Of a stretch of DNA of 44,880 nt, positions 32,941-44,880 are shown one piece after another. Below the pieces are notes generated by a model. It made no database searches and was not told the origin of the DNA. It saw only the letters and a list, made by a program, of their open reading frames with translations. Origin of the DNA: an uncultured Verrucomicrobiota bacterium (GTDB taxonomy: Bacteria; Verrucomicrobiota; Verrucomicrobiia; Limisphaerales; UBA9464). Numbering within the stretch: the stretch's first letter is position 1; each line of letters begins with the position of its first letter. The stretch spans positions 1 to 44,880 of the forward strand of contig CAITXU010000258.1 in assembly GCA_903896505.1 (NCBI GenBank), in the 5' to 3' direction. Position numbers and translations under genes: made by a program.

Positions 32941-33015
32941 GGCGGGGTAGCCAAGTGGTAAGGCAGGGCTCTGCAAAAGCCTCATCCGTCGGTTCGATTC
33001 CGACCCTCGCCTCCA
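32941..33015 (+). tRNA. tRNA-Cys (anticodon GCA), probable attachment site of the island
   Basis: A complete cloverleaf: acceptor GGCGGGG paired with CCTCGCC (one G-T pair), D-arm GCC/GGC, anticodon stem GGGCT/AGCCT with loop CTGCAAA (anticodon GCA, Cys), T-arm GTCGG/CCGAC with loop TTCGATT, discriminator T and encoded CCA. An integrase gene starts 190 bp after its 3' end in the same direction, the classic layout of a tRNA-integrated element. The att core is probably the 3' half of the tRNA; its second copy is outside the window. Confidence 0.95.
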
Positions 33016-33204: not shown

Positions 33205-34242
33205 ATGAAGACACGCTACATCCTCTACCGCCGGGGCGACATGTACTACGCCGAGGACACGGAGACCGGTAAGCAGGCCACCCTGCGCACCAAGAACAAG
33301 GCCGAGGCCCTCGTGTTGCTGAACGCCCGCAACGAGGCCTACCGCCAGCCGGTGCTCAACCTCCACATCGCCCGGACATACCTCGCCGCCACCGACCCCG
33401 CCATCGTCACCCGCACCTGGCAGGTGCCGATGGACGAAATGACCCGGACGAAGACGGGCCCGACGCGCGTTCGGAACGAACGCGCGATGATGGACCCGGC
33501 CTTCGACCTGATCCGCAATCGGCCGATTCTGGAAACCAAGGCCGCCGATTTCCTCCAGACCCTCGAAGCCGGAACCGTCGCCACCAATGTCTTCCTTCGC
33601 CGCATCCACAACTTCGCCTTGGACATGAGCTGGCTGCCTTGGCCGGTGCTGCCCAAGAAACAATGGCCCAAGGTCAAGTTCAAGACCAAGCGGGCCATCA
33701 CGCTCAAGGAGCACCAGGCGATTCTGGCGAGCGAATCGAATCTGGAACGCCGCGCGTACTACGCCTTCTGCTGGCACGTCGGTGGCGCGCAGTCCGACGT
33801 GGCGGCGCTCACGGCCGAAGACATCAACTGGCGGGACAAGGTGGTCGGCTTCCGCCGCCAGAAAACCGGCACAACCTCCGTCATTCGCTTCGGCGACGAA
33901 TTGGAGGAACTCCTTCGGTCCTTGCCGACCACCGGCCCCCTCTTCCCTCGGCACCATCAATTGCGGGAAGCGCATCGGGCCACGGAGTTCGCCCGAGCCT
34001 GCCGCCGCTTGAAGATCAAGGGAATCACCCTGCACAGCTACCGGTACGCGTGGGCCGAACGGGCGAAGACCTGCGGCTACCCGGAGCGCTTCGCCCAGGA
34101 GGCCTTGGGGCACAACAGCAAGGCCGTCCACCGCGCCTACGCCAAGAATGCGCAGGTGGTGATTCCCACTCTGGAGTCGTACGAACGCAAGCTGGCCGCT
34201 GGCGCCGACATCATCCCAATGCCGGAAGCGAAAGTTGCCTAG
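33205..34242 (+). CDS. Tyrosine recombinase/integrase, ArgI replaced by Gln
   Basis: A 345-residue site-specific recombinase placed just after tRNA-Cys. Residues 1-155 hold the arm- and core-binding domains. The catalytic domain has a probable Lys at 220 (RRQKTGTT), HSYR (His 277, Arg 280), LGH (His 303) and the nucleophile Tyr 312 (HRAYAK). The first active-site Arg, normally in a TGxR motif, is replaced by Gln 196 in GGAQSDVAAL, while the surrounding sequence keeps the family pattern. Nothing else suggests decay: the frame is intact with an ATG start. It should drive integration and excision of the element. It converges with the Xis-like gene. Confidence 0.85.
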   Translation: MKTRYILYRRGDMYYAEDTETGKQATLRTKNKAEALVLLNARNEAYRQPVLNLHIARTYLAATDPAIVTRTWQVPMDEMTRTKTGPTRVRNERAMMDPAFDLIRNRPILETKAADFLQTLEAGTVATNVFLRRIHNFALDMSWLPWPVLPKKQWPKVKFKTKRAITLKEHQAILASESNLERRAYYAFCWHVGGAQSDVAALTAEDINWRDKVVGFRRQKTGTTSVIRFGDELEELLRSLPTTGPLFPRHHQLREAHRATEFARACRRLKIKGITLHSYRYAWAERAKTCGYPERFAQEALGHNSKAVHRAYAKNAQVVIPTLESYERKLAAGADIIPMPEAKVA

Positions 34243-34268
34243 ACGGTCAACCGTCGGCGATTTTCGCC
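34243..34268. terminator. Possible bidirectional stem-loops between int and the Xis-like gene
   Basis: Two adjacent palindromes, GACGGTCAACCGTC (34243-34256) and GGCGATTTTCGCC (34256-34268), lie across the convergent 3' ends. The second overlaps the end of the Xis-like coding region and is followed by a short A-run, not a T-tract. A terminator role is plausible in this position but weakly supported. Confidence 0.3.
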
Positions 34269-34597
34269 GAAAATGTCAGGACCGCCGGATGACTGTCCCG
34301 CGACGCTTTCGCGGGACGGTCCTTGTTCCGGTCGTTGTGGTCCTTGGTATGCTGGATGATTGCGTTGGTCACCTTCGTCAGCCAAGACCGGTCCTTGATG
34401 GATTCCAGCACGTCCGCCGTGCAAAAGAACTTGATGCCATTGGATGGCGGGTTACCAAGCGGCTTGAGGAGACGGGCGGCCATGAGCGCGGCAATCGCGG
34501 GAGGCGGGCAATTCAGCAGCCACGCCACCTGCTCGACAGTGAGCCGGGCTGGCAATTGGCCACTCAACGACAGAAATCGATGCTGTTTCTCGTCCAT
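34247..34597 (-). CDS. Small HTH (excisionase-like) protein
   Basis: A 116-residue protein with a winged-HTH-like core (LTVEQVAWLLNCPPPAIAAL, then a basic segment and KFFCTADVLESI). This is the pattern of MerR/Xis-type DNA-binding domains, and a position next to an integrase supports a role as excisionase or regulator. The C-terminal ~45 residues are hydrophilic (HTKDHNDRNKDRPAKASRD). The same C-terminal sequence recurs in degenerate form at 39333-39440. Identification is by motif and context. Confidence 0.6.
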   Translation of the reverse strand: MDEKQHRFLSLSGQLPARLTVEQVAWLLNCPPPAIAALMAARLLKPLGNPPSNGIKFFCTADVLESIKDRSWLTKVTNAIIQHTKDHNDRNKDRPAKASRDSHPAVLTFSAKIADG

Positions 34598-34862
34598 GGT
34601 TCGCCGAAGGCCATTTCGCCCTCTGGCTGAACGGGTCGGTCAGAGACGTTGAATCCGAACAGGAATTCCTTGAGAAAAAGACCGAATAGTTCGGTAACTC
34701 CGTAACGCGGGCTCTCCTGCTTTACGCCCGACTAGCGATCTCCCGCCTAGCGTCGTGGTACAGATGTCCAGTATTCTTTGATTAGGGCCCCTTGCATGGG
34801 AATGCCCCGCGGGAGGCAAAGTCGTAAAACCCGCCGTCGGCGGCCACTTATCCTTGAGCACA

Positions 34863-37800
34863 ATGAGCCAGGACGAAGCAAAACAACACGTCATGCAGAT
34901 CCGACAGGAAAAATTCTGGCTGGATGATGCTTCACGCAAACCGAGCGATAATCCGCTCATGGCGATGCTGCGCCGTGCGCTGAATCAACTCGCCACCGGA
35001 ATCTTTGAACACGCTCACCATTACGTTTTTGAGCTGACGCAGAACGCCGACGACAATAACTACGCCGACCACGCACATAGATTCTTAAAGTTCGTCCTCC
35101 TTGAAGATGACCCGACGCACACGCCCGGAAGCAGGGGCTGTCTCTGCGCGCTGAACGACGAGGCGGGATTCGAGAAGAAGCACGTCGAGAGTTTGTGCGA
35201 TATTGGGAACTCCACGAAGCAGGGCAACCGAGAGGGCTACATTGGTGAGAAGGGCATCGGGTTCAAATCGGTCTTCCTCATCTCCGACCGTCCCCACGTC
35301 ATTTCCAATGGCTATTCCTTCCACTTTCGGCGCGACGATTGCGACGCTGGACTTGGCTACATCGTTCCACATTGGAACGAGCAAGTTCCCACGGTCGCCA
35401 GGGACAGTCCAACAGCCATTCTACTTCCGCTGCGAAGCACGTCTGGCATTGATGTTGCTCAGCAACTCGCGGACATCGAACCTGAGTGCATCTTGTTTTT
35501 GCGTCGACTCCGCAGCATTGAGTTGGCGGCTGCCCAAACTGGCTTGAAACGGACCGTGCGATGTGGTGGCACGGATGGATTTTTTGACCTCGAAGCCGAT
35601 GGCACGCGGACCAGCTACTTTGTTCATCGGAAAGACCACCCATGCGTACACATTCGCGATGAGCGTCGTGAGGGCGTCACTTCAACATCGGTCACAGTCG
35701 CGCTTCCGTTGACCGGGACAGAAACGACGGATGGCCGAGTGTTCGCGTTTCTTCCTACCGAGGCGCGGACGGGATTCCCGTTCCTCATCAATGCCGACTT
35801 CCTCCTGCCTTCCAGTCGTGAACGGATTCTCGACACGCCGGAATGGAACAAGCATTTGGTCGTATTTACTGCGTCAACTTTCGTCGAGGCATTCGACGTT
35901 TTACGGGCCAGCGCGAAACATCGGACACTCGCCTACCGCTTCATCCCGGTGAAGGCTGAGTTGCTTCCTGGTGCGAGTCTTTTTGCGCCAATGGTCGAGG
36001 TGGTGCATGGCGCGTTAACAAAGATGGCCTGCATTCTTACCGAAATTGGTGACTGCGTCCTTCCACAGAATGCCTGCTTTGCTGGTCCGTTGTCTCGACG
36101 CCTGCTCTCGGATGCTCCACCAAAGCTGGCAAACTTCCGATTGGTTCATCCCGACTTGGAGCAGCACCGGAAGCGGCTTGAGCCGCTTGGCGTTCAAACT
36201 CTCGCGATCACCCAAGTGCTCGATATCTGCGCCGATGTGGACTGGCTGCGCGACCGCAAAGCTGATTGGTGGGAGACCCTGTTCGAACTGCTATCGCGGA
36301 ACGAGATGACTGCAGAAGCGGTGTCATCGTTTCCTCTGCTTCGCTGTCGAGACGGCGTGTGCCGTCCTCCTTCTGGTGGAAGCATTTTCCTTCAAGGTGA
36401 GAATCAGCAAACGCCATTGACGTTTCCGCCTGAATGGCCGCCCGCACACATTTTCGATGCGGATCTTCAGAATCGCCTTCAGCAAAAGCCAGCAGCGTGG
36501 GCTTGGCTGGTTCGAGTCGCGGGCCTACGGCCCTTTTCGGTTGAGGCATACATCACTGGCAGTCTGCTTAACTGGATGCGGGGACAAGTAGGCCAGTGCG
36601 CCGCAGAATACATTGTGGCAGCCACCCACTTCGTCGCAACCAACCTCAAGAAGCCCGATGAGCATCGCGAAACGCTCCGCAAGAAAATGCCTTGGCTGCT
36701 CGCCGACAAACGTGTGCTGCCCCCAGATGCTCACGGCGGTAAAGAACTGGTCACGCCGGAGTGTGTCGAAGGAGATTCAGGCTGGAACTGGGTTTTCATC
36801 AGCGCACAGGACCGGCAGCACTTCTGGCTCTTGAGCGACGCCTACATTGATGGCCAGCCCGAGGCAACAAGGGATTCGATTCGTAAACTGATGGCGGCTT
36901 GCGGCGTAACCGAGGTTCCAGATCCAGCGAGAATCAATCTCCATGACGGGAAATGTGATTGGGGGTGTCCGCGCTGGCTGCGTGACTTAGACCTTCAACA
37001 CGCTCCGCAGAACTTGGACCGGAAAGTTGCGGCCTTGGAACATTGGATTGGGCGCTTCAAGCCAGAGAGCTTTGCCAAATTCCTAACGATTGGCGCAGAT
37101 GAAAGGGGTTGGCTTGGGAACAGTGGCAGTCTGCATTCGGAACTCGGGGCCGTGCTTCGCAGCCGTCGGTGGCTGCGGTCAACGAAAGGGTTGGTGTCAC
37201 CGCCGCACGCGTTCGTGGATGACACGGAGATTCGTGAGTTTCTGGGCGACTCCGTTGCTTACAGCCGAGCGAAGCTGCAAAGTGAGTTCCTCGGCAAACT
37301 TGGGACTCGCCTCCGACTCTCGGCAGGGACGCTTGTCGAATTGCTCCGGCAAATGCGGGACGCGGGGCGGGCGGATGAAGCACTGGTCGTTCGCATTTAC
37401 CGACGGCTGCAAACGCTGGAATTCGATGCCGGCCTCTTCCGTTCAGAGCCGTTGATTTACCTCGCTCGGCCCACGGCGCATTGGAGACAATCCGAGCGTG
37501 TGTTTTGGAACGATGCGGGTGATGTGTTCGACGAATACTTCGGCTACGCGAAGCTCACTTACGAAAACGAAGATCTTCACGCATTTTTTACCGACAAGCT
37601 GGGCGTCCGTGCCGACGTGCCGGAACAGCAACTGGCCGAGGTGTGGGCACAGATGTCAGGCGCGGGCGCGCTCGCACCTGATGTCGTCGAGAAGCGCCTG
37701 AACATGATTTTGCCGAGGGTGGCAGCGGCGTCCGATACCAATGAACTGCCGGCTTGGTGGCAAGCGCTTCGGGCACAGTTGAAGATATGGACCGTTTCAA

Positions 37801-39287
37801 AGGGCTTTGAGACGCCAACGAACGTTTTCGCGCCGGATGATACGTTCGCCGAGGGAGTCTTTGCAGGGACGGCGTGCATTGCGTGGCGGTCCAAGTCCAT
37901 CACCGAGGCTCGGCTGAACCGCCTGCTTCGATCTTTGGGATGTCGCTCTCTTGCTGGAAGTCTCAGAAGCCGCTCGGCAAGCACACCCGTCAAGGAGGCC
38001 AGCGAAAAGCCAAGATTTCTCACACCGGCGACAAAGGAGTTATTGTTCTGCTGGGTCTGCGCTTCCGATGGGTGGAGCAACAAGCGTCAACAGCTCGAAC
38101 AGTTATTGCGGACTGAAGAGGCACAAGTCACCAACTTGCGAGTCGAATACTGGCTCGATGGCGATAAAGCGCCGGTTTCAGGTGTCGAGGCAGATGCGTT
38201 TTGGGCAAGTCAAGACCGACGGTTGTGCTTGAGACGTGATGCCACCTCGAAGGCACAGCAATCCGCAGCAGCCAAGACCATCGCGGCACAATTTGGGCAT
38301 CCGAGCAAACAGGGTGAAGACACCGTTTATCGCCTCCTCGGCCTCGAAGCTGCCGACGCTGGCCGTGAACTGGCTGAACGGAAATGGCAACTGACGCCTG
38401 ACCAAAAATCCTGGCTGCAATCAATCGGCTACAGGTCGGAGTTGGTGGAACTCTCCACCGACGCCACGAATCAGCCAACTCGCGAATCACGTCCGGCCAT
38501 AGCATCGCAAACTCCGTCAGGCGGCAGCGCGTCTGCCACGCCTCAACAGCAATCAGCCCCAGAAACTCAACCAGACAGCAAACCTTTGTCCGACGGACAG
38601 CCTGTGCCGTCATCTCCCGATAGTAGTTCGCCTGATTCGGGGGCAACCCGAAATCCGGATCAAACAGGCGCGCGACTGCATGCTGAACGAAACGAGTCAC
38701 CGCAACAGACTCGCTCCGCGGAATTCAATAAGGATTCTGGTCGACCGCTCAAATCACCCGACGCCGAAGCGGAGTTTGTTCACGTCACCGCACACACCAG
38801 AAGGCGACCAAGACACGAGCGCCAGCACCGGGAAGCGGGCCACAAAGAATCCCGGGAACAGCACCCGATGGCCGGCATCTCCCAAGCGACAAAAGCTGAC
38901 ATCGAGGAGGCTGCGGTGCAGGTCATCAGGCGGCAGTTTCAAAAGCGTGCGGACTTGCGGGAGTATAATTTCTTAGACCGACGGCAAGACAACTGCGGCT
39001 ACGACGTTCATGTCGCCAAGCCCGGGCGAGTGATTCGTATTGAAATCAAGGCGCACCTCCGAGAGGCAAAGTCGGTGTTTGTTACGCAGAAAGAGTGGCA
39101 AGAATCCCGGCAGCGAGATCGTCTTGCGCCAGACGACAAATGGGAACTGTGGAACGTCGAAAACCTCGCCGTTGACGCAGGCATGGTGCGGATTACCCGG
39201 TACAGCTATTTGCCAGACGAAGCGCGCACGCGCGAATCTGGCTACTGGGTTGACCTCTCCGCGTGCGCTTCCGAAAGCATTCAGTGA
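34863..39287 (+). CDS. Hsp90/sacsin-type ATPase with C-terminal DUF3883-like domain
   Basis: A 1,474-residue cargo protein. The N-terminus is a GHKL (Hsp90/sacsin-like) ATPase: N-box ELTQNADDN (57-65), NDEAGF (98-103) and the glycine-rich lid GEKGIGFKSVF (128-138). The long middle region (about 300-1180) matches nothing I can name. A Ser/Pro/Gln-rich linker (about 1195-1290) leads to a C-terminal domain with GYDVHV and RIEIKAH, matching DUF3883. D1381, E1394 and K1396 give a D-x12-E-x-K pattern like PD-(D/E)xK nucleases. ATPase plus nuclease-like tail inside a mobile element suggests genome defence. The ATG at 34863 is preferred to a TTG three codons upstream. No partner gene is beside it. 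Confidence 0.75.
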   Translation: MSQDEAKQHVMQIRQEKFWLDDASRKPSDNPLMAMLRRALNQLATGIFEHAHHYVFELTQNADDNNYADHAHRFLKFVLLEDDPTHTPGSRGCLCALNDEAGFEKKHVESLCDIGNSTKQGNREGYIGEKGIGFKSVFLISDRPHVISNGYSFHFRRDDCDAGLGYIVPHWNEQVPTVARDSPTAILLPLRSTSGIDVAQQLADIEPECILFLRRLRSIELAAAQTGLKRTVRCGGTDGFFDLEADGTRTSYFVHRKDHPCVHIRDERREGVTSTSVTVALPLTGTETTDGRVFAFLPTEARTGFPFLINADFLLPSSRERILDTPEWNKHLVVFTASTFVEAFDVLRASAKHRTLAYRFIPVKAELLPGASLFAPMVEVVHGALTKMACILTEIGDCVLPQNACFAGPLSRRLLSDAPPKLANFRLVHPDLEQHRKRLEPLGVQTLAITQVLDICADVDWLRDRKADWWETLFELLSRNEMTAEAVSSFPLLRCRDGVCRPPSGGSIFLQGENQQTPLTFPPEWPPAHIFDADLQNRLQQKPAAWAWLVRVAGLRPFSVEAYITGSLLNWMRGQVGQCAAEYIVAATHFVATNLKKPDEHRETLRKKMPWLLADKRVLPPDAHGGKELVTPECVEGDSGWNWVFISAQDRQHFWLLSDAYIDGQPEATRDSIRKLMAACGVTEVPDPARINLHDGKCDWGCPRWLRDLDLQHAPQNLDRKVAALEHWIGRFKPESFAKFLTIGADERGWLGNSGSLHSELGAVLRSRRWLRSTKGLVSPPHAFVDDTEIREFLGDSVAYSRAKLQSEFLGKLGTRLRLSAGTLVELLRQMRDAGRADEALVVRIYRRLQTLEFDAGLFRSEPLIYLARPTAHWRQSERVFWNDAGDVFDEYFGYAKLTYENEDLHAFFTDKLGVRADVPEQQLAEVWAQMSGAGALAPDVVEKRLNMILPRVAAASDTNELPAWWQALRAQLKIWTVSKGFETPTNVFAPDDTFAEGVFAGTACIAWRSKSITEARLNRLLRSLGCRSLAGSLRSRSASTPVKEASEKPRFLTPATKELLFCWVCASDGWSNKRQQLEQLLRTEEAQVTNLRVEYWLDGDKAPVSGVEADAFWASQDRRLCLRRDATSKAQQSAAAKTIAAQFGHPSKQGEDTVYRLLGLEAADAGRELAERKWQLTPDQKSWLQSIGYRSELVELSTDATNQPTRESRPAIASQTPSGGSASATPQQQSAPETQPDSKPLSDGQPVPSSPDSSSPDSGATRNPDQTGARLHAERNESPQQTRSAEFNKDSGRPLKSPDAEAEFVHVTAHTRRRPRHERQHREAGHKESREQHPMAGISQATKADIEEAAVQVIRRQFQKRADLREYNFLDRRQDNCGYDVHVAKPGRVIRIEIKAHLREAKSVFVTQKEWQESRQRDRLAPDDKWELWNVENLAVDAGMVRITRYSYLPDEARTRESGYWVDLSACASESIQ

Positions 39288-39332
39288 CCAGATTCAACTG
39301 CGGGCTGGTGGCCGGGCGGCAGCACCCCCGGA

Positions 39333-39440
39333 TGGGAATCCCGCGAAGCCTTCGCAGGACGGCCCAGACTCCGGTCGTTGTGTTGCTCGGTGTGCTGGAC
39401 GATGTCCATTGATCACTTCGCCTTCAGCCAGACGAGTCGC
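39333..39440 (-). pseudogene. Degenerate copy of the 3' end of the Xis-like gene
   Basis: On the minus strand one frame reads IVQHTEQHNDR followed by RPAKASRDSHP, matching the C-terminus of the gene at 34247-34597 (IIQHTKDHNDR, RPAKASRDSHP). A stop codon interrupts the frame upstream, just after WLKAK, where the intact gene has WLTKV. No N-terminal part remains. The copy sits 46 bp after the sacsin-like gene, so the intact and broken copies bracket that cargo. Confidence 0.7.
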
Positions 39441-39505
39441 CGCCGGTCACCGAAGTTGAACACGAAAAGTTGTTCAGTTTTGTTCCGTACGGCGACTGGG
39501 TATGT

Positions 39506-39817
39506 GTGAGCGAGAAAGCCGACAAAACAATTCCGACGACCTGCCGACTGGAACGCGAGTACCGGGAGTTGCTCGACGGCCGGGCCAGGGATTTGAATCT
39601 GAAATCCGCTGAACTCGTACGGAAGTATGTCTTAGAGGGCCTCAAAGAGGACTCGACCAAAATCACCCTCCATCAGGAATTGCCGGCCATCGGCGAGGAA
39701 CTCAAGCAACTGCGGCGCGACCTCTCGTTGCTTGCGGAAGCGCTGATGATCCGCGCCGGGAACATGGAGCCGGCGGCGGCCCAAGCATGGGCCGTGAAGA
39801 ACTTTGCTGCCCGATAA
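39506..39817 (+). CDS. Ribbon-helix-helix protein, probable relaxosome accessory
   Basis: A 103-residue protein with a ribbon-helix-helix-like segment (TTCRLEREYRELLDGRARDL followed by NLKSAELVRKYVLEGL) and a helical C-terminus. Proteins of this type bind oriT or their own promoter and help the relaxase in mobilisation systems. It ends 15 nt before the relaxase gene in the same direction, which supports that role. The GTG at 39506 is chosen; a TTG at 39470 is open but adds sequence unlike the family. Confidence 0.65.
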   Translation: MSEKADKTIPTTCRLEREYRELLDGRARDLNLKSAELVRKYVLEGLKEDSTKITLHQELPAIGEELKQLRRDLSLLAEALMIRAGNMEPAAAQAWAVKNFAAR

Positions 39818-39832
39818 CGGAGGAAACGAGCG

Positions 39833-41557
39833 ATGATCTCCATCTCGGACCCCATCAAAAACCCGAACCAGATCAAGTACCACTTGGCCATGGCGCGTGT
39901 CGGTTACTACGCCAGCCTGTACGAGGATCCGGGCCAATGGGCCGGCAAAGGCGCTGCGCTGTTGGGTTTGAAAGGGCCAGTCACTGAAGAGGTGTTGCGA
40001 AACCTCTTCGAGGGCTACAGCCCGGATGGCAAAACCAAGCTGGTCCAAAACGCCGGGAGCCCGGACCGCCAACGCGCCATCGACATGGTTGTGACGCCTC
40101 CGAAAAGCGTTTCCGTGTATTGGGCGATGGCTGAACCCTCGGAACAGGCAACCCTGCTTCGACTCCACCATGAGGCGGTCAATGCTGCCCAGGAGTTTTT
40201 GGAGGAGCAGGCCGGCCTGACACGTCGCGGCCAAGGAGGGCAAAAGATCGAACCCGCTGCGATGGTCTTCGCTTGCTTTGACCACTATACCTCGCGTGCC
40301 AACGATCCGAACCCGCACACCCACCTGCTGGCGCTCAATGTCGTCGTTCGTGAGGATGGAACCACGGGAACTCTCCACAATAGTGGGCTCTTCGAGCACC
40401 GGGCCAAAGCAGACATGATCTACAAGGTCCACTTCGCCTTGGGGCTGATGCTCGAAATGGGACTCCAAGTCGAAGAGGAAGGTCACGGCTTTCGGATTGT
40501 CGGCGTGCCGAAGGAGGTGTGCGACGTGTTCTCTAAGCGACGCGCGCAGATTCTGGAGTACATGGACGAGAACGGGTTGAGCGGAGCCGCCGCCGCGAGC
40601 ATTGCAGCAGTGGCAACCCGTCCAGCGAAGCAGCACATCACCCGCGAGAACCTAATCGCGGAATGCCATCGCATCGGGCGGGCGTTGGGTTGGGGGCCGG
40701 AAGAGGCGGCCGCGCTCGGCCGGGAAACGAAGGTTCGGAAGCTCGCCGCGAAATACGCCCACCTCCTGAAACCCGAGGCGGAATCCGGGGAGCAAGGCAA
40801 CCGGTCAACTGAGGTACGGAGGCAGGCGCATTCGAAAGCGAGTCGTCCGGAGCGAGAGGCAAAGCCGAGCGACTCCGATCTGTCGAACCCGTCCAGACGC
40901 AGGGACCGGTCCGACCGGAGCGAATCCGGACAGAACCATTCAAGCCACTCTGGTGGGCATCGCGAACGGACGAAGTCCGAACAGGGGCAAACGTGGAGTT
41001 CCTACGACGGGCGAGATGGAGGCGCTCACAAACACAGTTCATGGGACGCCCAGGCCGACGCGCAGGACGCCGAGAAGGATGCATGGCACACCCGGAAAAA
41101 GTCCTCCCTGTTTCGGCAGGTCTCGCGAGGCAACTTCGTGCTCAAGCACGCGCGTTGGGGTGACATCCTGTGGAAAGTGAATCTGGGAATCGTCGAAATC
41201 CGCATTCAAAAGAAGCGCCTGTTTCCAAAGAGTCCCGGCTTCAATCCGGCCTCAAAACTCGCGGTTCCGGCCATTCGAATTGTTCCGTGGCGAATCAAGC
41301 TCTTCGAGAAAACGCCGCTGCACAAACGCAAGCAGCCGGTGCTGATTTGGAAGAAGGCGTTCCTGCTAGCCGAACTGCGGTTGCAGCGCGAGCGGCTGTT
41401 TCACGATGCGCCCCGGTGGAGTCCGATCAAAAACGTGGAGATTACCCGCGTGAAGTTGGGCTGGCGGACTTCGGAAATCCCGGAGTTGGAGAAGAAGAAA
41501 AAGCGGGAGAAGTCTGAAAGCGGGAACCAATCCCAAGGTATGAGCCAGTCGCTCTGA
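39833..41557 (+). CDS. MobF (TrwC-type) conjugative relaxase without helicase domain
   Basis: Nicks oriT and stays bound to the transferred strand. The 574-residue protein starts at an ATG preceded by GGAGG. The relaxase domain (about 1-290) has the Tyr pair Y25-Y26 with Y30 nearby, the conserved DMVVTPPKSVSV and the metal site FDHYTSRANDPNPHTHLLAL (His 151, 162, 164). TrwC and TraI proteins carry a helicase after this domain; here residues 270-574 are instead hydrophilic, then strongly basic with no Walker motif. It therefore depends on another helicase or works differently. Confidence 0.9.
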   Translation: MISISDPIKNPNQIKYHLAMARVGYYASLYEDPGQWAGKGAALLGLKGPVTEEVLRNLFEGYSPDGKTKLVQNAGSPDRQRAIDMVVTPPKSVSVYWAMAEPSEQATLLRLHHEAVNAAQEFLEEQAGLTRRGQGGQKIEPAAMVFACFDHYTSRANDPNPHTHLLALNVVVREDGTTGTLHNSGLFEHRAKADMIYKVHFALGLMLEMGLQVEEEGHGFRIVGVPKEVCDVFSKRRAQILEYMDENGLSGAAAASIAAVATRPAKQHITRENLIAECHRIGRALGWGPEEAAALGRETKVRKLAAKYAHLLKPEAESGEQGNRSTEVRRQAHSKASRPEREAKPSDSDLSNPSRRRDRSDRSESGQNHSSHSGGHRERTKSEQGQTWSSYDGRDGGAHKHSSWDAQADAQDAEKDAWHTRKKSSLFRQVSRGNFVLKHARWGDILWKVNLGIVEIRIQKKRLFPKSPGFNPASKLAVPAIRIVPWRIKLFEKTPLHKRKQPVLIWKKAFLLAELRLQRERLFHDAPRWSPIKNVEITRVKLGWRTSEIPELEKKKKREKSESGNQSQGMSQSL

Positions 41558-41836
41558 CCCTGCAGAGCTTCAGTCATCCTTCACGGCCGCGCATCCACTG
41601 TGCGGCTTGACGCAGCATCCCTACTTCCGATCACCGCCCGATGCTTGGATTGGTAGTCCCATGGACTGGCCGACTCAGGCATGGGCAGACATGGTCGGTC
41701 GTCGTCGATCTTCTCTCTTCGGGCACTGCGCGCTTGAGTCGGAGTGCAAAAAATTTGCAAACTCCCCAATCCTCGAAGAAAGAGGCTCCTGAAAGGCGTG
41801 CCGTCCAACGGCGTAACTCCTTTGCGCTGAACTGGA
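41558..41836. other. Gap between relaxase and zinc-ribbon gene
   Basis: 279 nt without a credible gene. It contains short GC-rich palindromic pieces and an AT-richer patch (GCAAAAAATTTGCAAA at about 41741). An oriT could lie here or upstream of the relaxase, but I see no inverted repeat with a recognisable nic consensus. Confidence 0.4.
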
Positions 41837-42571
41837 ATGAAGTTTGTTTGCCGAGAACGAGATTGTCCGGGCGTCGGGTTGCGAGACACCGGGTGCCCGA
41901 AATGTCAGTTTTCGGTGACGCCCCAGGGCGTCGTGGGATTCGCGTGGCGTTCGCTGGTCGCAGGACTTGGTGAGCGATTCGGTGTCCGCTGTCCGGTCTG
42001 CCGCGATGTCATTCCGGCTTTCCAGTCCGTCTGTCCCGGCTGCAAGACGACACTGACGGTTGGACGCGTGGTTGATGAAACACTCGGACCAAGCCGCGAA
42101 CGGGCGAAGCAACTCATCGCTCCGACGCCTTTCAAGGTCACCGTTTTCCAGTGGGCCTACCTTTTGATCTCGGCGGTCGTCTTCTGGTTTCTGTTTGTCG
42201 CGCTGCAAAACAAGGCCGGGGTCGATGCCATCCTTCCGGCGTTGCTCTCAGTTTTCTATCTGGTGCTGTTCCTCTGCCTGTTCGCCTGGATGGTTCCACG
42301 TCCGACCATCGTGGCGCTGAGTCGGCGGGCACCGAAACGAATCAAGTTGGGGCTGCTGTTGAATTTCCTGACCTGCGGCATTCTCCTCGATATGGCGGTC
42401 AAGGAATGGTGGGCGCGGGCGACGCTGTTGGCAGCGCTATTCGGCGCAATTGGGGTCGGCTTCTGGCTCTTCTGGAAATTCCTCTGGCCGATGCTTGGGG
42501 CGAGTGCCCCGTCCGGTCCAAAACCCTTCAACCCGCAAGACCCCCAAGGGCGGAGCGTCGAAACCGAGTAA
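41837..42571 (+). CDS. Zinc-ribbon membrane protein of the transfer region
   Basis: A 244-residue protein with two Cys pairs at the N-terminus (DCPG...GCPKC) and a second set (CPVC...CPGC, about 52-69), consistent with one or two zinc ribbons. About four membrane helices follow between residues 100 and 225. I know no named family. It ends 6 nt before the coupling-protein gene, so they are probably cotranscribed. The coupling protein lacks its own N-terminal membrane segment, so this protein could supply the anchor. Confidence 0.65.
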   Translation: MKFVCRERDCPGVGLRDTGCPKCQFSVTPQGVVGFAWRSLVAGLGERFGVRCPVCRDVIPAFQSVCPGCKTTLTVGRVVDETLGPSRERAKQLIAPTPFKVTVFQWAYLLISAVVFWFLFVALQNKAGVDAILPALLSVFYLVLFLCLFAWMVPRPTIVALSRRAPKRIKLGLLLNFLTCGILLDMAVKEWWARATLLAALFGAIGVGFWLFWKFLWPMLGASAPSGPKPFNPQDPQGRSVETE

Positions 42572-42577
42572 CCGGCC

Positions 42578-44224
42578 ATGGCGTCGCTCTGGGACTATTT
42601 CGGCAAGAACCCCGAGGACAACGGGAAGCCTTCCGGATTGGAGGCTTACTTTCTCGACGAAGAGCCGCCCGCCACCGATCCCTCGGGTCAGGTCGAACCC
42701 TGTGCCGTCGAGTTCAACGAGGAACTGATGTACTGGGCGATGCGGAATTTGCCGGTGAAGGAAGCCGTCAAACACTTCCTGGTTTGCGGCGCCATCGGCA
42801 CCGGCAAGACCACGACGATTGACCTCTTCCTCCAGTCGATCAAAGACCGTTTCCGACCCGGCCGAGAAAAGCCCGAACAGCTCATCATTTTCGACGCCAA
42901 GAGCGAGATTGTGCCGAAGCTGAATGCCCTTGGGTATTCCGTCGAATTGGACGCCCCCGAGAGCAACAACGTCTGGCTGCTGAACCCGTTCGACAAGCGA
43001 AGCTGCACTTGGAATATCTCCGAAGCGGTGGAGACGCCGCTGATGGCTCGGCATTTCGCGGCCTTGGTTGTCCCGGAAGAGCCGGGCAGCAACACGCCCT
43101 TCTTCTGGTCGGCATCGCGTCAGCTGGTGTATGCGGTGCTCATCGGCCTGTTTCGGACTCCGGTGTACGCGAGAAAGAAGTCGTGGGAGTTGCGGGACCT
43201 CTTGTCGGCATTGGCCAACCGGGAGCGGATTCTCGCCATCACTTCCCTCGATCCGCGCGCCAAGGAATTGGCCCAAAGCATCCTCAACGACAAACAGCAC
43301 TCCGACGCCGTCGTTGCGAGTCTTGCGACCAAGCTGGCTCGGTTCGAGGAAGTGGCGGCGCTGTGGAAGTCCAATTCGAAGCCGCGGTTGTTCTCGATCC
43401 CGGAGTTTCTCAAGAAGCCCGGTGTCCTAATCATCGGCAACGATCCGGTGCTCCGGGAAAGCCTCTGGCCAATCAACGCGATGCTCCTGAAATCTCTCGC
43501 CCAAGAGATCTTGCGGGGCACCGAAACTCAGGAGCCGCGACACTGGTTCGTACTGGACGAATTCCCGGCGATGGAACGGGTGGAGGCCATTCAAGATTTG
43601 GTCAACCGCGGCCGCAGCAAGGGCGCATCCGTCTTGATCGGTATGCAGGGCATCGACCGGCTCAATGAACTGTACGGGCAACACGGGGCCAACGATCTTT
43701 TGGAGCAGCTCACCCACAAAACGTTTTTCCGGGCGGGTGGACCCGAGACGGCGCAATGGATCGAGCGCTTCTTCGGCCAGTACCGGCGAACCGAGGAGTC
43801 CCATGGAAGCTCGTGGAGCAAGGAAGGCACTTCCCATTCGACCAGCTGGGGCACTACGGAGCGGGCCATGTTCCTCGCGTCGTTCTTCATGAACCTGCCC
43901 TTCACTGGGCCCGGCAAGGAACTCGTCGCGGTCCATGACATCCCGTCTCTCCAGAAGACGTCGATTACCCGCCGCCCTTTCGACAAGGTAAATTCCTGGA
44001 GGGTGAAGCCGACGGACGTCAAAGCGGTCATGGGGCGAACCAGCATCCTCGAACAAACGCTTGTGGGTTGGGACACCGCCGAGACCGCCGAGTATTGCGC
44101 CACCCCAAGCCCGGCCGCCAATCCGGCCGCTGGTGACCCGCCCGAAGAACCAAAAGCCGTCACCAAGAAAAAGGCCGACCGCGACGAAGCGCTGCCGGAG
44201 CGCAAAGAGCGTTGGCCTGACTAG
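42578..44224 (+). CDS. TrwB/TraD-type coupling ATPase (T4CP)
   Basis: Couples the relaxase-DNA complex to a secretion channel. The 548-residue protein has Walker A GAIGTGKTT (71-79) and Walker B WFVLDEFP (323-330), plus RGRSKGASVLIGMQGIDRL, typical of the TraD/TrwB DNA-binding ATPase domain. Residues 1-60 hold no hydrophobic helix, unlike canonical TrwB with its two N-terminal membrane segments. The C-terminus ends in a Pro/Ala/Lys-rich tail. It lies between the zinc-ribbon membrane gene and a membrane-anchored coiled-coil gene. Confidence 0.88.
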   Translation: MASLWDYFGKNPEDNGKPSGLEAYFLDEEPPATDPSGQVEPCAVEFNEELMYWAMRNLPVKEAVKHFLVCGAIGTGKTTTIDLFLQSIKDRFRPGREKPEQLIIFDAKSEIVPKLNALGYSVELDAPESNNVWLLNPFDKRSCTWNISEAVETPLMARHFAALVVPEEPGSNTPFFWSASRQLVYAVLIGLFRTPVYARKKSWELRDLLSALANRERILAITSLDPRAKELAQSILNDKQHSDAVVASLATKLARFEEVAALWKSNSKPRLFSIPEFLKKPGVLIIGNDPVLRESLWPINAMLLKSLAQEILRGTETQEPRHWFVLDEFPAMERVEAIQDLVNRGRSKGASVLIGMQGIDRLNELYGQHGANDLLEQLTHKTFFRAGGPETAQWIERFFGQYRRTEESHGSSWSKEGTSHSTSWGTTERAMFLASFFMNLPFTGPGKELVAVHDIPSLQKTSITRRPFDKVNSWRVKPTDVKAVMGRTSILEQTLVGWDTAETAEYCATPSPAANPAAGDPPEEPKAVTKKKADRDEALPERKERWPD

Positions 44225-44264
44225 CGCCAGTTTCCGATTCAGACTGCGAACCCATCCATAACCT

Positions 44265-44880
44265 ATGGCCGATCAACTTGATTTGAAACCACGTCCGGAA
44301 ACGCCGAAGCCCCGTGGCATACCTTTGTGGGTCGCCCTTGCCGCCCTGCTGGGGCTTGCGGTGGTGGGCGGAGTGGTCGTGGTCGTCCTCATGCGCCAGG
44401 CGACCAATGACAAGGCGAAGCTGGAATCGAAGATGGCGGCGTGGCAGTTGGAACAGGGAAAGACCGAAATCGCCAAGCAGAAGGCGGAGGAACAGGCGAA
44501 GCTGGCGGTCGCCCGATCCCGCCAAACCGACGCCCTCGCCCAAGTTCGGCTGGCGACCAACGTCGTCGGACAACTCCTGCAAGGGCTGCAGGACTTGGAC
44601 CGCGACGCGACGGCGCTGCGCACGAGCGACAGCGGCAAGCAAGCGGCGCGTTTTCCGGACCTCGTCGTCTTGGCGCGGCGACTCTACGACGTGGACCTCA
44701 AGGCGGTGGCATCCCAAGCCACGGCCATCTCGAAACTCGAAGGCGAACGTCGCTTGGAAAACCAACTCGTCACCGCCGCCGGGACCGCGTTTGAACCCGA
44801 TGCCACGTTCGCGACTACCGCCCAGTCGGACTCGATGTGGGCGAATCAGGAGATCGCCAAGGTGCCGCAGATTCGGTCCG
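44265..44880 (+). CDS. Membrane-anchored coiled-coil protein (partial, cut by right edge)
   Basis: 205 residues are visible. A short cytoplasmic-looking N-terminus with Pro-rich KPRPETPKPRG leads into one membrane helix (about 22-43), then a coiled coil rich in Lys, Glu and Gln (about 47-90). The remainder is helical and charged. I recognise no family. Placed 40 nt after the coupling ATPase in the same direction, it is probably part of the transfer apparatus, for example a channel or scaffold component. The C-terminus is outside the window. Confidence 0.6.
   Translation, partial: MADQLDLKPRPETPKPRGIPLWVALAALLGLAVVGGVVVVVLMRQATNDKAKLESKMAAWQLEQGKTEIAKQKAEEQAKLAVARSRQTDALAQVRLATNVVGQLLQGLQDLDRDATALRTSDSGKQAARFPDLVVLARRLYDVDLKAVASQATAISKLEGERRLENQLVTAAGTAFEPDATFATTAQSDSMWANQEIAKVPQIRS

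Follow-up and report, generated by a model that had tools for sequence, protein, structure and literature searches.

A probable Tiamat-type (TmtA-like) protein with a predicted C-terminal nuclease domain on a tRNA-Cys-associated element of an uncultured Verrucomicrobiota bacterium

What might a single protein of 1474 amino acids, with a sacsin-type ATPase domain near one end and a nuclease-like domain at the other, do for the mobile element that carries it? The gene that raises this question lies at 34863-39287 of contig CAITXU010000258.1 (assembly GCA_903896505.1) of an uncultured Verrucomicrobiota bacterium of the order Limisphaerales; the entire contig of 44,880 nucleotides, here called the window, was analysed. 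An initial annotation, made from the letters of the sequence, had seen in it an ATPase sensor joined to a nuclease-like effector, a typical outline for a defence system, and had found no named single-gene system to which it could be matched. That last point has been overturned: PADLOC models for TmtA, the Tiamat protein, match its N-terminus, middle and C-terminus, and the architecture is therefore already known. The product probably belongs, as a divergent member, to the Tiamat (TmtA) family, whose anti-phage systems consist of one protein; its gene is cargo of an integrative mobilisable or conjugative element at a tRNA-Cys gene, and the protein would act through an ATP-gated nuclease mechanism.

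The tmtA-like gene and its family

The open reading frame is intact, running from an ATG at 34863 to a stop codon ending at 39287, with a TTG three codons upstream, at 34854; it is called coding by its codon usage, and a chance frame is excluded because a full-length homologue from another family is 61% identical to the protein from end to end. The gene is present in a single copy within the genome. TmtA is its sole match in PADLOC (383.6 bits). When pieces of the protein were searched separately, the N-terminal 610 amino acids matched positions 4-598 of the 1302 in TmtA model PDLC03972 (E 7.6e-94), residues from about 756 to 934 matched positions 891-1099 of the 1655 in PDLC03966 (E 1e-15), and the last 195 amino acids matched the ends of two models, PDLC03971 (positions 1610-1767 of 1782, E 5e-10) and PDLC03972 (1152-1255 of 1302, E 4e-6). 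Both the order of the regions and the two ends of the protein agree with the Tiamat models, and a plasmid homologue (L003) matches a different TmtA model over positions 1-1560 of 1563.

Tiamat (TmtA), covered by PADLOC models PDLC03964-03972, is reportedly a single-gene anti-phage system described by Millman et al. in 2022. The protein studied here resembles it in being one very large chain with a sacsin/GHKL N-terminus and a DUF3883 C-terminus at the matching model ends; it differs in its diverging middle and linker, and in that its gene sits on a tRNA-Cys integrative element with a MobF relaxase. The Tiamat family is already known, and this is a further, divergent member of it. We regard the protein as real, intact, mobile and of a divergent Tiamat type, with a predicted nuclease domain that is well supported. 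SACS and NOV_C are its only Pfam matches up to E 10; within that limit there is no match to the DUF4263 domain of Shedu, nor to the DnaJ and HEPN domains in which human sacsin, with an ATPase domain of the same type, differs from it.

From ATPase domain to predicted nuclease

The joining of a GHKL ATPase to a DUF3883-like domain, central to the initial annotation, is borne out by the Pfam matches at the two ends (Table 1; NOV_C, PF13020, which is DUF3883, covers residues 1348-1419 with E 7.9e-8). NCBIfam P_loop_sacsin also matches the ATPase region (E 4e-17), and both the N-box E-x3-N and the glycine-rich lid motif of sacsin-type GHKL proteins are present. Residues E57, L58, Q60, N61, A62, D64, G128, G131, G133, F134, R319 and N329 are invariant in an alignment of 12 sequences whose identities fall as low as 16%; the N-box and the glycine-rich lid of GHKL proteins are among them. 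The GHKL residues E57, N61, D64, G128, G131 and G133 are likewise invariant in an alignment of 6 sequences.

The stretch of some 1,000 residues that follows (about 151-1199) contains no named Pfam domain, as had been noted. One could suppose that it reads modified bases, and that the nuclease then cuts modified DNA only, in the manner of a modification-dependent (type IV-like) restriction enzyme. GHKL/MORC proteins have been linked to restriction-modification operons (PMC2292703), GrwAB, a neighbour in the GHKL-Shedu paper (PMC12137116), recognises modified DNA, and neither Pfam nor the gene calls revealed a methyltransferase gene in as much of the element as the window shows. Against these points, Pfam shows no reader domain between residues 151 and 1199 up to E 10, and we consider such an enzyme unlikely. 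The lack of a recognised methyltransferase in the visible element also makes simple methylation-based self-protection by the element unlikely, though possible. The MORC and paraMORC GHKL proteins of restriction-modification operons (PMC2292703) are comparable to our protein in combining GHKL modules with nucleases at laterally mobile loci; they are unlike it in that its GHKL domain is of the sacsin type and no methyltransferase or helicase partner gene was recognised in the visible element. The middle region leads into a linker of low conservation and low complexity (about 1200-1340), again as first described, which is the least conserved part of the protein: 53-62% identical to the homologue in genome G115, versus 64-85% in the other parts.

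The D-x12-E-x-K motif that had been picked out in the C-terminal domain corresponds to D1381, E1394 and K1396. After residue 1200, only these three together with I1393 and V1432 are invariant among six full-length sequences of 20-71% identity; D1381, E1394, K1396 and L1429 are invariant in all 21 aligned domains from the window, locus L002 and viral contigs, and the D, E and K positions are also kept in an alignment of 30 NOV_C domains from the order. An AlphaFold2 model of the domain made from the 21-sequence alignment (predicted local distance difference test score, pLDDT, 81.7; predicted template modelling score, pTM, 0.79) supersedes an earlier one of residues 1320-1474 from 10 sequences, which had a pLDDT of 60 and mixed fold matches. 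Its core is helix-strand-strand-strand-helix-strand, with a long first helix and with D1381 and E1394/K1396 borne on strands, so that the alpha-beta-beta-beta-alpha-beta core of PD-(D/E)xK nucleases is present in the predicted model. The structure comparison which the initial annotation had proposed also gives a PD-(D/E)xK fold for this region: the best Foldseek matches of the model are Holliday-junction resolvases (Hjc; probability 1.00, E 3e-4), with EcoRV high too, and VIA-align gives Z 10.0 against Sulfolobus Hjc (root-mean-square deviation 3.0 Å over 104 aligned residues). VIA-align found 41 chains with Z of at least 8; among the matches listed are Hjc, DpnI, NhoI, SwaI, RecU and the SPARDA effector, all of which we take to belong to the PD-(D/E)xK nuclease superfamily. 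Neither the complete protein sequence nor the C-terminal profile found anything relevant when searched against the PDB. These comparisons support the C-terminal domain as a predicted PD-(D/E)xK nuclease with an invariant D/E/K triad, and DUF3883 has been called a novel restriction endonuclease domain (PMC3710099) and a presumed type II restriction endonuclease (PMC10609329).

The same C-terminal nuclease domain family is found in HmaA and other fusions of an SNF2 helicase to DUF3883, which have a helicase motor where the 1474-amino acid protein has its GHKL domain. A second DUF3883 domain of this genome lies at C219:13875-14132 (L105), within a frame of 1241 amino acids, and an L105-like domain elsewhere in the order (L044) is part of an SNF2-helicase fusion. 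The plant protein NO VEIN, a eukaryotic developmental protein from which NOV_C takes its name, has this C-terminal domain in common with ours, as judged from the shared family. Tiamat matches in plant metagenomes have been reported to lie entirely on plant genome sequences (PMC12409356), which is what one would see if NO VEIN genes of plants were being caught by the models.

The element at tRNA-Cys and the homologues

The features of the element visible in the window are collected in Table 1; its right end lies beyond the end of the contig at 44880. The 3' end of the tRNA-Cys gene is taken as the probable integration site because DNA similarity to a genus-mate (G001) breaks off exactly there, at 33015 (the G001 contig itself ends soon after). 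Chromosomal genes lie to the left: FtsK-like, MutY-like, FAD-binding oxidoreductase, FGGY kinase and glycosyltransferase family 3. From 33205 to 44880, the tmtA-like gene is the sole recognisable cargo not concerned with transfer, as the initial annotation had it. Its GC content at third codon positions is 0.62, versus 0.73-0.87 for the other element genes and 0.65-0.71 for the chromosomal ones.

Table 1. Coordinates in the window of the tmtA-like gene, its parts and the other features of the element
Feature	Position	Strand	Evidence
tRNA-Cys (GCA); 3' end the probable left attachment site	32941-33015	+	ARAGORN
Tyrosine-recombinase integrase	33205-34242	+	Pfam PF00589, E 6e-11
Small protein with weak helix-turn-helix similarity, possibly excisionase/AlpA-like	34247-34597	-	HTH_17, E 0.07, below cut-off
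tmtA-like gene (Tiamat-type), 1474 amino acids	34863-39287	+	PADLOC TmtA PDLC03972, E 6.5e-115; TmtA models matched in three separate regions
Sacsin/GHKL ATPase core, residues 53-150	35019-35312	+	Pfam SACS PF25794, E 1.4e-11; N-box E57-N61-D64; lid glycines G128, G131, G133
Middle region, residues about 151-1199, including invariant R319 and N329	35313-38459	+	No Pfam match; PDLC03966 at about 756-934, E 1e-15
Linker, residues about 1200-1336, low conservation, low complexity	38460-38870	+	Lowest identity to G115 homologue; six-sequence alignment
NOV_C/DUF3883 domain, residues 1337-1474, predicted PD-(D/E)xK nuclease	38871-39284	+	Pfam, AlphaFold2, Foldseek, VIA, invariant D/E/K
Codons of D1381, E1394, K1396	39003-39005, 39042-39044, 39048-39050	+	D-x12-E-x-K motif
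Small NikA-like accessory mobilisation protein	39506-39817	+	PF21983, E 0.0016, below cut-off; gene call; open also from TTG 39470
MobF/TrwC relaxase	39833-41557	+	PF08751, E 1e-68; NCBIfam MobF, E 5e-64
Small protein with weak zinc-ribbon similarity	42068-42571	+	Gene call; double-zinc-ribbon, E about 0.01, below cut-off, for the longer open reading frame 41837-42571
TraD/TrwB-type coupling protein	42578-44224	+	PF10412, E 7e-52

At E<=1e-20, homologues were found in 6 of 293 genomes of the order, that of the window included. Close copies occur in two others, G115 (75% identity) and G085 (69%, N-terminal part only), and weaker ones in G031 (33%), G208 (49%, a fragment) and G196 (32%); two genus-mates that were examined have none. 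Homologues are therefore not mostly core chromosomal genes: being patchy in the order and missing from those genus-mates, the gene is accessory rather than core in its distribution. Relatives are also found in nineteen plasmid records and, with an alignment as query, in 11 viral contigs; single-sequence queries gave none in the viral contigs, and there were none in the phage collection. Tiamat has elsewhere been found to be frequent in the genomic-island hotspots of Pseudomonas (PMC12629846).

Homologues stand near defence genes of several kinds, an association whose testing the initial annotation had suggested. The neighbour in G085 (locus L002) is a helicase that bears a REase_MTES_1575 domain and is matched by models of Mokosh and Hhe. 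On plasmids, qatABCD lies directly downstream of the homologue in Sulfuricurvum and a UvrD helicase directly downstream in Sphingomonas; a WYL regulator and a RecB-like nuclease lie upstream in Roseovarius, and a helicase and a dsDNA (double-stranded DNA) nuclease gene are nearby in Rhizobium. The G031 homologue is about 8 kb from a tRNA-Leu gene which a tyrosine integrase adjoins. In G115, a SIR2-like gene with a GAGCS motif (L037:11517-12584; a weak yet coherent match) has an ATG overlapping the stop of the tmtA homologue (ATGA), possibly a two-gene variant.

The N-terminal module does not always end in the same way. A relative on a haloarchaeal (Halorubrum) plasmid, L132:7836-12521, has the sacsin domain with a C-terminal HNH_2 nuclease replacing NOV_C, a possible effector swap, and two relatives on viral contigs, L045 and L048, have no detectable NOV_C; such variable endings (NOV_C, HNH_2, none detected) fit a split between sensor and effector. 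The first of these viral relatives (L045:5995-9228) is 36% identical over residues 4-408 and has no DUF3883; its C-terminus, judged by eye, resembles an HNH domain that has degenerated, and the large gene that follows encodes a superfamily 1 (SF1) helicase. The defence outline of the initial annotation has thus gained a predicted nuclease fold and triad, a patchy distribution and defence neighbours, and it stands to that extent, neither of the two outcomes named in that annotation as refuting it having been observed; the roles of sensor and effector within it are still only suggested.

The same features bear on whether the protein has a defence role at all. It might instead be a sacsin-like chaperone or DNA-repair factor serving the element, given an ATPase domain of the sacsin/Hsp90 type and a predicted nuclease fold similar to that of Holliday-junction resolvases. 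We think this very improbable in view of a homologue distribution that is patchy, mobile and defence-associated, the lack of Pfam matches, up to E 10, to the DnaJ and HEPN domains of sacsin, and the replacement of the C-terminal nuclease by HNH in one relative.

The last 21-25 nucleotides of the tRNA-Cys recur in the same genome at C259:8528 and C292:574, where there is no tRNA gene, each copy being followed by an integrase of its own. Contig C259 (L064:2-9799) has a PglX-like methyltransferase, AbiEi and AbiEii-like genes and a BrxL (BREX-type) gene just before its 21-nucleotide copy, with the integrase after it; on C292 (L065:574-5998) the copy is followed by an integrase, an AbiEi-like gene, a TOTE archaeo-eukaryotic primase-helicase and an IS66 transposase. 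Because both contigs carry such a copy together with an integrase and defence genes, a tandem defence array at tRNA-Cys, spread over C259, C292 and the contig of the window (C258), seems likely, the joining of the contigs being itself presumed.

That several integrase-bearing elements appear to use one tRNA-Cys site in this genome would also suit a competition module of the element, an ATP-gated nuclease directed mainly at rival plasmids and integrative elements rather than at phages, as would the fact that no cargo but this gene is recognisable alongside the integrase, relaxase and coupling protein, and the occurrence of relatives in the 19 plasmid records. Homologues adjoin anti-phage systems such as Qat, though, and phage defence is what the family is named for. 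Roles against phages and plasmids are compatible, and a module aimed mainly at rivals is to our mind improbable.

Proposed mechanism and its significance

The best reading seems to us to be an ATP-gated nuclease working like the GHKL-Shedu protein VcSduA of Vibrio cholerae, the likeness being one of mechanism and not of family membership. The N-terminal sacsin-type GHKL domain would bind ATP and probably dimerise; with the long middle region it would form a clamp able to recognise a property of invader DNA or of replicating phage. Binding or hydrolysis of ATP would alter the clamp and activate the flexibly tethered C-terminal PD-(D/E)xK domain, which would cut DNA using D1381, E1394, K1396 and a divalent metal. 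Its target could be invader DNA or, in an abortive response, all DNA, and any sparing of self DNA would likewise be a matter of inference. In VcSduA, a GHKL ATPase and a C-terminal PD-(D/E)xK nuclease are likewise combined in one chain, and defence needs both: E27A in the ATPase or K557A in the nuclease abolished anti-phage activity (PMC12137116). The nuclease of VcSduA is of the DUF4263 rather than the DUF3883 family, and the protein appears to be much shorter, to judge from catalytic K557.

Several observations weigh against a Tiamat-type, ATP-gated nuclease. The protein does not match any one TmtA model from end to end, the main stretch covering about 47% of PDLC03972 with a C-terminal piece in addition, and residues from about 620 to 1340 are divergent from TmtA. 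The GHKL G1 box (DxGxG) is degenerate (NDEAG at about 98-102) and variable among relatives, and the AlphaFold2 model of the C-terminal domain was built on only 21 aligned sequences. A sequence link between DUF3883 and Mrr has been dropped and is not claimed, because profile comparison with Mrr_cat nucleases gave <1% probability. In Actinobacteria, Tiamat reportedly lies on the chromosome in nearly all cases (PMC10482375). Finally, the helix glutamate of most relatives is Q1360 in the 1474-amino acid protein, which could mean that the C-terminal domain is what remains of a nuclease, binding DNA but no longer catalytic. Since D, E and K do not vary even among very divergent relatives, as would not be expected of a relic, that explanation is the hardest of all to credit, and a catalytic domain is preferred.

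A wider proposal, which we put forward only tentatively, is that sacsin-type GHKL proteins may together make up a general class of immune nucleases gated by ATP. A single clamp sensor would be combined with interchangeable C-terminal nucleases (DUF3883, or HNH as in the haloarchaeal plasmid relative), tandem defence arrays at one tRNA-Cys would carry such proteins, and NO VEIN of plants would descend from them by domestication.

Tiamat has been described as mechanistically unknown (PMC10482375, PMC12926258, PMC10740426), and the value of the protein lies in this, that for a system whose mechanism is unexplained it gives one that can be tested residue by residue. It makes Tiamat a probable ATP-gated nuclease, in the company of GHKL-Shedu, and supplies the exact candidate residues for mutation, and the link to plant NO VEIN through a common C-terminal domain adds evolutionary interest.

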